Positions 44,845 to 56,376 of a stretch of DNA of 64,000 bases are shown one piece after another. A program made the position numbers and the translations under genes. The notes under the pieces are model-generated. The model worked only from the letters and a program-made list of their open reading frames with translations, did no database searches and had not been told where the DNA came from. Source of the DNA: an uncultured Acetobacterium sp. (lineage in GTDB: Bacteria; Bacillota; Clostridia; Eubacteriales; Eubacteriaceae); NCBI RefSeq assembly GCF_963664135.1, contig NZ_OY760905.1, forward strand, positions 1,762,736 through 1,826,735. Direction: 5' to 3'. How positions within the stretch are numbered: position 1 is the first letter of the stretch; each line of letters begins with the position of its first letter.

Positions 44845-45112
44845 TTTTTAGGCATTCGCCCAAGTTCCGTGAACTTTGCATTCAGTTTCGCACGAAACAA
44901 TTTTTACACTGTACGTCGTACAGGCTATCGCCTGTTCGCCTACACGTTACAAAATTGTTTTCGTGAAGGCAATGAGCCAATCACAAGCTTGCTTGTAGTT
45001 GGCGACTGCCCGCGAACAATAAGAAATTCGCATAGCGATTTCTTATTGTTGTGGAAACTAAACGCAAAGTAACTTTCGTTCGACTCTTTTGAATTTTTTA
45101 ATCGCCTAAAAA
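44845..45112 (+). repeat. Nested-hairpin repeat, copy E (long form)
   Basis: This copy fills the 352-base gap before the creatininase gene. Outer arms TTTTTAGGC (44845-44853) and GCCTAAAAA (45104-45112) pair perfectly. The core is as in copy A, with apical ACAGGC-TATC-GCCTGT. A 90-base insert (44961-45050) lies within the right arm; it holds its own hairpins GGCAxTGAGCCAA/TTGGCGACTGCC and AACAATAAGAAAT/ATTTCTTATTGTT. The remaining bases to 45173 are featureless. Confidence 0.85.
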
Positions 45113-46026: not shown

Positions 46027-46067
46027 ATAAAAAAAGCCTATCCAGAATCGAATACGCTTTTTCTAAT
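46027..46067 (-). terminator. Terminator-like hairpin at the end of the orphan riboswitch unit
   Basis: AAAAAGC-C-TAT pairs with ATA-C-GCTTTTT, and on the minus strand seven U residues follow. It would stop transcripts coming from the 46.6-kb promoter before they reach the glutamine amidotransferase gene at 45887. Confidence 0.6.
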
Positions 46068-46144
46068 GGTACTTAAATTTTTGACCAGCAAAAATCTAAG
46101 CGGGAAGTGTTTTCTATATAAATGTAAATCAATGAAAGCAAGAT

Positions 46145-46330
46145 AAATTCGGGGATGTCACACACCATCCCCGAGGAAGGGTATTAAATACTGACTTGGA
46201 GATGTCCTTGTATTCGAAGTGATTCTTCTATTAACTGTTGGTCAGGAGAAATACCAACCCCAGGCTACACACAATTGCCCGGGTTCTCAGGTGATGACCA
46301 ATAACATGTCAGTATTAAGCGGGCTCACCG
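46145..46330 (-). ncRNA. Candidate structured small RNA downstream of an orphan cobalamin riboswitch
   Basis: No convincing gene exists between 45888 and 46914. This stretch folds on the minus strand: P1 AATACTGAC/GTCAGTATT (46308-46316 with 46187-46195), P2 TTGGTCA/TGACCAA (46295-46301 with 46238-46244), P3 AACCC(G)GGGC with GCCTGGGGTT (46277-46285 with 46256-46265), and a 9-base-pair hairpin TCGGGGATG/CATCCCCGA (46149-46174). The P3 and last loops both contain GTGTGT. I do not recognise a known RNA family. The opposite strand would fold too, so the sense is inferred from the riboswitch orientation. Confidence 0.45.
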
Positions 46331-46336
46331 GAAAAC

Positions 46337-46367
46337 GAAAAAAAATCCTTCTCCAATGGAGAAGGAT
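46337..46367 (-). terminator. Terminator of the orphan cobalamin riboswitch
   Basis: ATCCTTCTCC-ATT-GGAGAAGGAT on the minus strand is a perfect 10-base-pair stem followed by eight T residues, about 80 bases after the aptamer. It is a textbook riboswitch expression platform. Confidence 0.9.
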
Positions 46368-46439
46368 AAAAGAATCATACTTAGAAATTTAAATATAATG
46401 CTCTTACAGTCCTCTAAATCGGAGGTTTTTATAAGAAAT

Positions 46440-46590
46440 CACTACAAACAGGTCTTCTGGCTCAACAATCAACTTTCCATCTGCCTTCCCGTTAATTACT
46501 TAACAGTGGCTCTGAGACGGTCATCATGTTTTACAGCTGCGATTACAGCAAAGGATTTACACCTTTTTCCCTTGAATATAGGACAAGTTC
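46440..46590 (-). promoter_or_regulatory. Orphan cobalamin riboswitch
   Basis: On the minus strand the cobalamin aptamer elements appear in order: AAGGGAAAAAGGTG, AATCC, GCTGTAATCGCAGCTGT, GAGCCACTG, CGGGAAGGCAGAT and GAGCCAGAAGACCTG (the B12-box position, about 46447-46462). It starts about 20 bases after a strong promoter, and is followed by a terminator and no gene. It lies just beyond the end of corrinoid operon 2, in the same direction. Confidence 0.92.
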
Positions 46591-46607
46591 ACTATTTAAT
46601 TAATTTT

Positions 46608-46636
46608 ATTCTACACTAACAATTTCTCTTTGTCAA
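46608..46636 (-). promoter_or_regulatory. Strong promoter of the orphan riboswitch
   Basis: On the minus strand a consensus -35 TTGACA (46631-46636), exactly 17 bases, and TAGAAT (46608-46613). Transcription would start near 46600, just before the aptamer. Confidence 0.85.
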
Positions 46637-46654
46637 GAGCAGTTTTTCTTCAAT

Positions 46655-46885
46655 ACCGAAAGTGTCGCGAGCTTGCCGAGTAGTTTCGCACGAAACAATT
46701 TCTACACTGTACGGCGGACATGCTATCGCCTGTTCGCCTACACGTTACAAAATTGTTTTCGTGAAGGCAACAAGCCAATCACAAGCTTGCTTGTAGTTGG
46801 CGACTGCCCGCGAACAAGAAGAAATTCGCTTTGCGATTTCTTCTTGTTGTGGAAACTGCTCGGACGCAATCATTGTTCGTGGTTA
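46655..46885 (+). repeat. Nested-hairpin repeat, copy F (long form)
   Basis: It lies between cbiT and the orphan riboswitch promoter. It has the same design as copy E, with a 90-base insert at the same point (46759-46848). The insert hairpin reads AACAAGAAGAAAT/ATTTCTTCTTGTT, against AACAATAAGAAAT/ATTTCTTATTGTT in copy E: T-A becomes G-C on both arms. The apical stem has one mismatch (ACATGC/GCCTGT). Confidence 0.85.
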
Positions 46886-54286: not shown

Positions 54287-55318
54287 TCAGACACCCCCTT
54301 GCTTACGTTTTCTCAAAAGATAGACAAAGAAGGGCCCCCCGAAGGCGGCGGTGATGATCCCGACTGGAATTTCCTGAGACATCAAGGTTCGTGAAATGGT
54401 ATCGCATAGAATCAGAAATGCGCCGCCAAACAACAACGAAAATGGTACTAATGTACGGTGCTTTGGACCAGTCACCATTCGGACAATATGGGGAACAATC
54501 AACCCGACAAATCCAATAATCCCGGTAACTGCTACGACTGCGGCGGTGATGAGTGATGATGAAAAAAGGATTTTCTTTTTCAGGGCTTCGGTATCCACAC
54601 CCAGCTGAGTTGCTGTTTCTTCTCCCAAAAGCATAATATCTAACTCTCTCACCGATGTCAGCATAATAATACAACCGATTATCACATAGGGTAAAACAAC
54701 AATCACCTGATTCCAGCCTTTTCCATTGAGACTTCCCATGATCCAGAAAATGATCTGATTCATACTTTCATTATTAAATAGCATTAACAGGGACATAAAA
54801 GCGCCCAGTGACTGTCCAATTGCTATCCCACTCAGCAGCAGGGTCGCCACCGGTACTTTCCGTCCGACGCGGGATATATTATAGACCAGCAGGATTGTTA
54901 AAAAAGCCCCGGCAAAAGCTAATAGCGCAATGCCGTTGAGACCTAAAAAGCTACTGGATAGATTCATCACAATGCCAATGGCGGCGCCGAGTGCGGCCCC
55001 TGATGAAACCCCTAAGATATAGGGATCGGCCATCGGATTTTTGAAAATCCCTTGATATGCTGCTCCGCAAAGGGCTAACGCGCCACCGGTAAGAAATGCC
55101 AAAACAACCCGCGGCAGACGAACATTCCAGATAATCGCCATCGCGCCTTCACTGATATTTTCCATTCCGACGTTGATATGAAAAATTTGATTCAATAGGA
55201 TTTTATTTGCATCGACAAAAGAGATTGCCGTAATGCCAGTCAAGGTGCACAGATAAATGATTAAGATGCAGCTTACAATGGACAATGGTAAAGCGTATTT
55301 TTTGAGTTTTTTTTTCAT
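54287..55318 (-). CDS. btuC: Cobalamin/corrinoid ABC importer permease
   Basis: A 343-residue FecCD/BtuC-family permease with about ten transmembrane helices. Typical motifs are RLPRVVLAFLTGGALALCGAAYQGIFKNP, DPYILGVSSGAALGA and GFVGLIVPHIVRM. It follows btuF and precedes btuD. Corrinoid rather than iron-siderophore specificity is inferred from the operon and its riboswitch. Confidence 0.92.
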   Translation of the reverse strand: MKKKLKKYALPLSIVSCILIIYLCTLTGITAISFVDANKILLNQIFHINVGMENISEGAMAIIWNVRLPRVVLAFLTGGALALCGAAYQGIFKNPMADPYILGVSSGAALGAAIGIVMNLSSSFLGLNGIALLAFAGAFLTILLVYNISRVGRKVPVATLLLSGIAIGQSLGAFMSLLMLFNNESMNQIIFWIMGSLNGKGWNQVIVVLPYVIIGCIIMLTSVRELDIMLLGEETATQLGVDTEALKKKILFSSSLITAAVVAVTGIIGFVGLIVPHIVRMVTGPKHRTLVPFSLLFGGAFLILCDTISRTLMSQEIPVGIITAAFGGPFFVYLLRKRKQGGV

Positions 55319-55419: not shown

Positions 55420-56376
55420 TTATTTTGAAAACAGCTCCGGATAAACATCTTTTGCCAAGAGCGCCAGCCCTTCAACAATACGTGGTCCTGGTCGTTGGAC
55501 CAAATCACTATTTGGTGATAAAAATTCGTAATAGACAATCTGATTGTTTTTAATGGCTGCAATCTTGTCAAAACCGGGTGTTGCTTTTATCTGTTCAGGT
55601 GTACTATACAATGAAATATATACATCGGGGTTGCTCGTAATAATCTGTTCGGTACTCAGTTGTGGCCACGGTGTGGCAGCATCCGCTGCAATATTCTTGG
55701 CATTAATATCAGTCAGCATTGAATCGAGCATCGAACCGGGTCCGGCACTAAAGAAATCACCCACATCAATAAAAACTGATTTTTGAGCAGCCGCCGTTTT
55801 GACCGTGTCGATGATCGTCTGCCGATCGGCGATCATTTTTGTCACCACTTGGCTCGCTTGATTATTGGTGTTTGTTACTTCACCAACCGTAATAATATCA
55901 TTCATAATCCCATCAATACTCACCGGACTGAAGACCAGTACTTTCGCCCCGGTTGCTTCCAATTGTTGACGGATATCATCGGAAATAAAATTGGAAGCCA
56001 ATACCAAATCGGGTGTCAAGGCAATTATTTTTTCCACATTCGGGGCATTGAAATCGCCGATACTGGGGACCGCCAATGCCGCTTCGGGATAATTATCATA
56101 ATCCGTTCGTCCCACAACTTTGTCACCAGCATCAACAGCAAAAAGGATTTCAGTCGTTGCCGGTGACAATGACACAATTTTCTGCGGCTCCTTATCAATG
56201 GTTACCATATTCCCCATATCATCAGTAACGGTTAATGGGTACGTGACGGCGCCATTTTTCATTTCAACTGCCGAAGTCACTTGGGTCCCACTACTTTGTT
56301 GACAGCCAGTAAAGGATACCATCAAGGTCAATATGACAAAAATTACTAACAGACTTTGCATTCTTTTCTTTTTCAT
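55420..56376 (-). CDS. btuF: Cobalamin/corrinoid-binding lipoprotein
   Basis: A substrate-binding protein (318 residues) with a lipobox VSFTGC near residue 24. The BtuF-like domain includes KIVSLSPATTEILFAVDAGDKVVGRTDY-type start (SLSPATTEILFA, VVGRTDYDNYP) and PDLVLAS. It captures corrinoid outside the membrane for BtuCD. It is the first gene after the cobalamin riboswitch at 56.5 kb, so uptake is repressed when cobalamin is abundant. Confidence 0.92.
   Translation of the reverse strand: MKKKRMQSLLVIFVILTLMVSFTGCQQSSGTQVTSAVEMKNGAVTYPLTVTDDMGNMVTIDKEPQKIVSLSPATTEILFAVDAGDKVVGRTDYDNYPEAALAVPSIGDFNAPNVEKIIALTPDLVLASNFISDDIRQQLEATGAKVLVFSPVSIDGIMNDIITVGEVTNTNNQASQVVTKMIADRQTIIDTVKTAAAQKSVFIDVGDFFSAGPGSMLDSMLTDINAKNIAADAATPWPQLSTEQIITSNPDVYISLYSTPEQIKATPGFDKIAAIKNNQIVYYEFLSPNSDLVQRPGPRIVEGLALLAKDVYPELFSK

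Follow-up and report, generated by a model that had tools for sequence, protein, structure and literature searches.

A cobalamin riboswitch that appears to control a conserved small RNA in Acetobacterium and relatives of Eubacterium limosum

A cobalamin (B12) riboswitch in an uncultured Acetobacterium sp. appears to control a conserved small RNA (sRNA), common to Acetobacterium and relatives of Eubacterium limosum, and not a protein gene. From the sequence it is highly probable that the locus encodes a B12-gated non-coding RNA. The fuller explanation, in which a cobalamin-OFF terminating riboswitch drives a stand-alone sRNA that would be released at low corrinoid and act in trans by base pairing, is given a probability of about 0.56, its base-pairing half being graded well below the half concerning the B12-gated RNA. 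The promoter, the aptamer, the complementarity of the switch, the covarying and conserved RNA, the changing neighbours and the lack of an open reading frame (ORF) were read from the DNA, while transcription and the B12 response in vivo, the base-pairing mode and the target class are what we infer. Double-sided changes in four helices, a hairpin loop (H3) kept on a new stem, and the persistence of the unit among different neighbours argue that the RNA is functional. An earlier reading of the same DNA (the sequence-only reading) had proposed a corrinoid-responsive sRNA at this place, and the comparative data support this: the RNA is conserved, stands alone and is preceded by a cobalamin riboswitch of the terminator type. 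The locus suggests that in acetogens, which depend on B12, an RNA serves to adjust other genes to a shortage of the vitamin.

All parts of the unit are found on the minus strand of the window, which is the whole stretch of 64,000 nucleotides that was analysed, from a genome of 4.08 Mb in a single contig. They are ordered as promoter, RF00174 aptamer, P13 hairpin, terminator 1, structured RNA and terminator 2, without a gene. The sigma-70-type promoter, TTGACA-17-TAGAAT at 46608-46636, has 11 of the 12 consensus bases, and all 16 aligned loci carry TTGACA and a TANAAT box; promoter-like sites overall were not enriched in the pattern scan (6 found vs 5.4 expected). The aptamer at 46430-46614 matches the full RF00174 model (1-189) with 85.2 bits, the gathering score being 31.5. 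Terminator 1 with its T-run covers 46338-46367 (stem 46367-46345 by pattern scan), and it was found in all 15 Acetobacterium loci that have the aptamer as well as in all six loci from the genera g5 and g2 described below. The consensus promoter, the complete aptamer and the perfect terminator of the sequence-only reading were thereby all recovered. A dispersed repeat is found in two copies (87%) at 44845-45059 and 46643-46857, one of which begins 7 nt upstream of the -35 box of the unit. The repeat has 48 matches in this genome, and in a search of 21 genomes it was found in 13 of 13 from the same genus and in none of the eight others.

The P13 hairpin (CCUCCGAUUUAGAGG, 46411-46425) carries the loop GAUUUA, which is complementary to UAAAUC in L5 of the aptamer and would form a kissing loop with it. 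All 21 loci examined share this same L13 sequence, and the complementarity of L5 to it is complete in 13 of them and partial in the remaining eight. The 5' strand of an antiterminator (46400-46415) includes the 3' arm of P13, and its 3' strand (46358-46373) overlaps the 5' arm of terminator 1. The resulting duplex, 46415-46400 with 46373-46358, is predicted, and an equivalent is found in all 21 loci with energies from -7.3 to -11.2 kcal/mol. Judged by sequence complementarity, the locus has the L5-L13 kissing loop and the mutually exclusive antiterminator and terminator of an RF00174 riboswitch, and its layout is the one predicted for a ligand-OFF switch of the terminator type. With corrinoid bound, the kissing loop would hold P13 and allow terminator 1 to form, so that transcription would stop after a leader of about 270 nt. 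When corrinoid is scarce, the 3' arm of P13 would pair with the 5' arm of terminator 1, and the polymerase would then continue into a structured RNA of 230-310 nt and stop at terminator 2.

Nine RF00174 matches are found in the genome, and for eight of these the distance to the start of an ORF on the same strand is about 60-200 nt. For L149, L150, L151, L154 and L156 the ORF was called by script; the others are L152, followed by what is presumably an ABC ATPase-like gene, L155, and L157, whose ORF at 56376 in the window was taken from a btu search. L155 (G000:C1:2721050-2721230) is situated ahead of an ORF that we take to encode an NrdD-like anaerobic ribonucleotide reductase. The orphan riboswitch is the only one of the nine that lacks a close gene, the first one beginning 542 nt on and past terminator 2. 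No conserved ORF was found in the core of the RNA at this locus or among the 18 loci scanned, which agrees with the earlier statement that no convincing gene follows, and which also bears on the decayed protein gene in orthologous loci that the same reading had named as counter-evidence. In several species an ATG within H3 (46126-46166, minus strand) does start a brief reading frame, MVCDIPEF..., as might be expected from a short coding sequence or the remnant of a decayed gene. The stop of this frame differs between species, the script detected no Shine-Dalgarno sequence, genus g5 has no ATG and the base pairs are preserved; a coding origin is the least probable of the explanations considered here, and a gene or short ORF was rejected as none is conserved in the 18 loci. 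When it comes to known RNAs, the core (46260-46030) has no Rfam 15 family above the gathering score but weak sub-threshold matches only. For the unit as a whole, RF00174 was the only family to reach its gathering score; sub-threshold matches to PyrR (29.6 bits vs 54, in the expression platform), to tsr26 and to others were judged to be chance.

Behind terminator 1 the RNA begins with a variable insert (46262-46337), which is absent or different in other species and has a mean pairwise identity of 0.22. The conserved core follows at 46030-46260 and scores 214 bits in the window with R1, a covariance model of the core built from 15 loci. Folding and alignment place hairpin H1 at 46237-46258, with the Shine-Dalgarno complement AUUUCUCCUG in its loop, and hairpin H2 at 46186-46215, where GAAUAC/GUAUUU encloses GAC/GUC and the loop is AUCUCCAA. 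Hairpin H3 (46149-46174) has the octaloop GUGUGUGA and is followed by a linker, GCUUUCAUURAUUU (46126-46139), that is conserved in the alignment. Hairpin H4 (46072-46100) has CUGGU in its loop here, most species having CUGGCC instead, and five pairs of its stem have double-sided changes. Terminator 2, at about 46030-46064 by folding and by helices 6 and 7 of the alignment, is the predicted end of the transcription unit.

This arrangement differs in part from the one first proposed, namely a structured region at 46145-46330 with a closed P1 stem and a GC-rich hairpin, followed by another terminator. A structured RNA is indeed present, but the conserved one is 46260-46030 and not 46330-46145. 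The GC-rich hairpin was found by pattern scan at 46174-46149, and the second terminator is seen at about 46064-46030 by folding and alignment, but not in the pattern scan. The arms of the P1 stem, AATACTGAC and GTCAGTATT, are complementary and pair in the minimum free energy (MFE) fold of the plus strand, but not in that of the transcribed strand. Its 5' arm belongs to the variable insert and is carried only by this genome and G005 among the 15 aptamer-bearing loci aligned, and the stem was rejected as not conserved.

The consensus structure of the 17 aligned loci consists of H1-H4 and terminator 2, and 90.7% of its cells pair; helix 7, the upper part of terminator 2, is poorly aligned with 61.6% of cells paired. 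Double-sided changes affect 13 pairs in H1, H3, H4 and terminator 2, compared to 5.6 in shuffles, none of 500 reaching 13, and no more than 7 in slid controls, but relatedness inflates the shuffle test, and fitting of the alignment to the model biases these counts in favour of the structure. In an alignment of 16 loci made with plain MAFFT, RNAalifold recovered H2, H3, H4 and terminator 2 as consensus, but not H1, and 13 of 37 pairs had double changes. The stems of H2 are nearly invariant, as 24 of the 36 columns in the H2 block, including the inner stem, do not vary. Mean pairwise identity over 15 loci is 0.91 for the aptamer, 0.90 for the H2 block and 0.95 for H3, while H1 (0.67), H4 (0.75) and terminator 2 (0.62) are more variable. 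When terminator 2, which contributes to the value, is included, the RNA behind terminator 1 folds better than shuffled sequences (z -3.76 here and -5.31, -5.69 and -4.58 in three relatives). For 46135-46340 alone the difference is moderate, with z -2.19 on the minus strand and -2.36 on the plus strand.

A DNA query with 46450-46010 matched 17 of 18 genomes from the genus, this one included, and two of 43 others. These two are G036, a relative from genus g5 that was matched in its P13-terminator stretch, and G042 from another family of the order, where 31 nt (L019, G042:C77:56715-56745) match part of the expression platform with 90% identity, probably by chance. The sequence-only reading had also suggested a covariance search for homologues; run with R1, it gave a single copy in each of 18 of 19 genomes from the genus, one of them from the same species, and none in 21 other genomes of the family. 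The genome without a match, G004, is 87% complete. A pattern scan of named genomes gave 14 records, which are Acetobacterium isolates and metagenome-assembled genomes labelled Acetobacterium, Eubacteriaceae, Bacillota or Firmicutes; among the species named are A. paludosum, A. bakii, A. wieringae, A. fimetarium, A. dehalogenans and A. tundrae. The riboswitch-sRNA unit of A. bakii has another cobalamin aptamer (L015:1157-1351, minus strand, 98 bits) just downstream. In G010 the TSS (transcription start site) is predicted at about 3,504,670 on the minus strand, with terminator 1 near 3,504,409 and terminator 2 near 3,504,108. Some copies lack hairpins: H1 is not seen in G009 and G007, and H4 is deleted in G005. 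In the G007 copy (L018:519-665, minus strand) a shortened core is joined to the promoter and the few bases next to it, and no RF00174 match is left. This copy may be decaying or rewired, and it is weak evidence because the core scores 89 bits, H4 and terminator 2 are not recognisable, and the fold is barely above shuffles (z -1.18), with UUUUUUU following soon after.

Upstream of the unit a corrin biosynthesis operon ends with genes for TP_methylase, CbiD, CbiC and CbiA-type proteins, and downstream is a gene for a class I glutamine amidotransferase (GATase). The position at the end of a corrinoid operon, which had been taken as a clue to the function, is thus correct for this genome, but it is not essential, as five of 17 loci continue directly into other sequence, with an antisense gene next in L004 and L008 and a different neighbour in L015, L017 and L018. 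In the remaining 12 loci the GATase gene is directly adjoining on the same strand, as would be the case if the RNA were a second cis-acting leader giving tandem regulation of that gene. Such a role is very unlikely and was rejected since the neighbours change between loci while the RNA persists, also in G036 of genus g5 where the next gene is convergent.

Genus g5 is, judged by relatedness, presumably a group of E. limosum-like organisms. By eye and by pattern, all five g5 genomes and G018 of genus g2 have the orthologous aptamer, P13 and terminator, and then a related but diverged RNA. The RNA of G018, representing a third genus, is partial and has no H3 octaloop. Shared with the Acetobacterium RNA are ACAUCUCCAA, found in five of five g5 loci, and CARUAUUURA. 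H3 reads CGGGGAUG-GUGUGUGA-CAUCCCCG in Acetobacterium, slightly altered in G016, G009 and G007, and AAAGGGGUG-GUGUGUAA-CACCCCUUU in four g5 genomes, while G062 has GCAAAACG-GUGUGUAA-CGUUUUGC. Between the genera the octaloop is retained and the stem exchanged. The H3 pattern occurs in 20 of 67 genomes of the order (16 Acetobacterium and four g5), and the reversed pattern in two. R1 does not reach g5 or g2, and the orthology therefore rests on the aptamer, the layout and motifs judged by eye. A query with the g5 RNA (L057) against 291 genomes of the class gave eight weak matches, six on the terminator/T-run stretch and two of 24-25 nt in loci without a cobalamin aptamer; it missed Acetobacterium and G018 as well, and thus detects close kin only.

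Riboswitch leaders are known to act in trans, as does SreA in Listeria, and the active product could likewise be the short, terminated RNA with the aptamer, which would form when corrinoid is plentiful, the read-through RNA being incidental. There is only a slim chance of this, as parts of the core (H2 block and H3) are conserved like the aptamer, and G007 keeps a shortened core after loss of the aptamer. The main rival of base pairing is sequestration of a regulatory protein through the H3 octaloop GUGUGURA, or alternatively through the invariant H2 block with its inner stem, which would resemble the mode of EutX and Rli55 but involve another protein. This is possible, though rather doubtful. 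It has a precedent in a cobalamin-controlled sRNA described as titrating EutV (PMC8934654), and the octaloop, retained while its stem was replaced, is better conserved than H1 and hence fits protein binding at least as well as base pairing. Against it, CU-rich loops predicted to be accessible are present too, and the hexaloops are not those of ANTAR-binding RNAs. The rule for the dual hexaloops calls for A as the first and G as the fourth base (PMC8934654); here CUGGCC of H4 is the only conserved hexaloop and the loop of terminator 2 varies. An ANTAR RNA was rejected on these grounds, and the RNA is, as first claimed, a different one.

EutX of Enterococcus faecalis and Rli55 of Listeria monocytogenes resemble this unit in that a cobalamin riboswitch is described as controlling a non-coding RNA which is active without cobalamin (PMC8934654). 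They differ in carrying ANTAR dual hexaloops that sequester EutV, while the RNA described here breaks the hexaloop rule and its core matches no Rfam family. RCd11 and RCd12 of Clostridioides difficile are antisense RNAs listed under c-di-GMP riboswitches (PMC11477304); they share the riboswitch-controlled non-coding RNA, but respond to another ligand and are type I antitoxins acting as antisense. In the open-access literature searched no description of the present RNA was found. The main text of a paper on transcription start sites (TSS) in A. woodii mentions neither riboswitch, sRNA nor cobalamin, 'small RNA' appearing only as the name of a kit (PMC8407422). For E. limosum, 93 regulatory RNAs with a TSS are reported, including seven cobalamin riboswitches with intergenic TSS (PMC5651825). 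The orthologous locus may be among these seven, and published TSS maps may already hold the transcript.

AspocR of Listeria is a cis-antisense RNA to pocR behind a cobalamin riboswitch. It too has the riboswitch before a non-coding transcript, but it is antisense, whereas no ORF of at least 80 amino acids is found opposite 46030-46355. Both the carbon fixation and the methyl-group metabolism of acetogens depend on corrinoid proteins, and cultivable species with genetic tools exist. If the proposed explanation is true, a conserved B12-gated sRNA in model acetogens would show how a costly cofactor is allocated, and a riboswitch-to-sRNA relay without the ANTAR motif, unlike Rli55 and EutX, would be added to those known.

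In the base-pairing explanation, which we prefer, the CU-rich loops (UUUCUCCU in H1, AUCUCCAA in H2 and UUCUCCUCCUU in g5) would pair with Shine-Dalgarno regions of mRNAs and cause repression. This could plausibly spare cobalamin by reducing the synthesis of corrinoid-using proteins. More tentatively still, one B12 sensor might shut a whole corrinoid-consuming regulon in trans, as RyhB, FsrA and IsrR do for iron. C-rich loops are described as the target-binding parts of Staphylococcus IsrR, and Bacillus FsrA as binding the Shine-Dalgarno sequence via a C-rich motif (PMC9410917). Like here, these RNAs have C-rich single-stranded Shine-Dalgarno complements, and in IsrR hairpins are followed by an intrinsic terminator (PMC9410917). 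Both are however controlled by iron and Fur and not by a riboswitch, and the likeness is one of motif and layout. C-rich loop motifs predicted to be accessible and an intrinsic terminator are both found in the present RNA. CUCCU is predicted to be unpaired with a probability of 0.50-1.00 in all 15 Acetobacterium loci with an aptamer, and CAUCUCC with one of 0.28-0.83 in the 14 of these loci that carry it. The ribosome-binding motif reported for E. limosum is GGAGR (PMC5651825), which the CU-rich loops match.

The exact 10-mer complement TTGGAGATGT has 47 matches in five genomes, and no convincing shared ribosome-binding site was found among the 29 examined, four of which are the antisense of the RNA itself. 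The 18 left out comprise 17 without a retrieved locus and L117, which fell outside the range scanned. One pair common to L108 and L120 resembles coding sequence. Start regions of corrinoid-protein genes were further compared in G010, where 24 of 26 loci had a start called by script (L129 and L140 were dropped). A first pass tried seven segments, with 88 background genes taken from these loci and from the window, and its best p was 0.033, uncorrected, with 0.056 for H2. In a second pass the corrinoid genes scored better than 165 background genes, with p 0.019 for H1 and 0.0099 for H2, these being the best two of the seven segments and the same 24 genes being reused. Shuffled flanks did as well in 24 of 100 cases for H1 and in none of 100 for H2. 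The signal was gone when paralogs were collapsed (p 0.14-0.31); with upstream bases only and paralogs kept, p was 0.016 for H1 and 0.23 for H2. The H2 signal largely tracks shared AUGUC starts, present in 10 of 24 corrinoid genes vs seven of 165 background genes. As the signal is lost on collapsing paralogs, base pairing is preferred but unproven, and we infer both targets and mechanism. In the window itself, the H2 loop region has a predicted 10-bp pairing (-16.2 kcal/mol) with 54288-54299 on the minus strand, before the start of a btuD-like ABC ATPase gene (AGGGGGTGTCTG).
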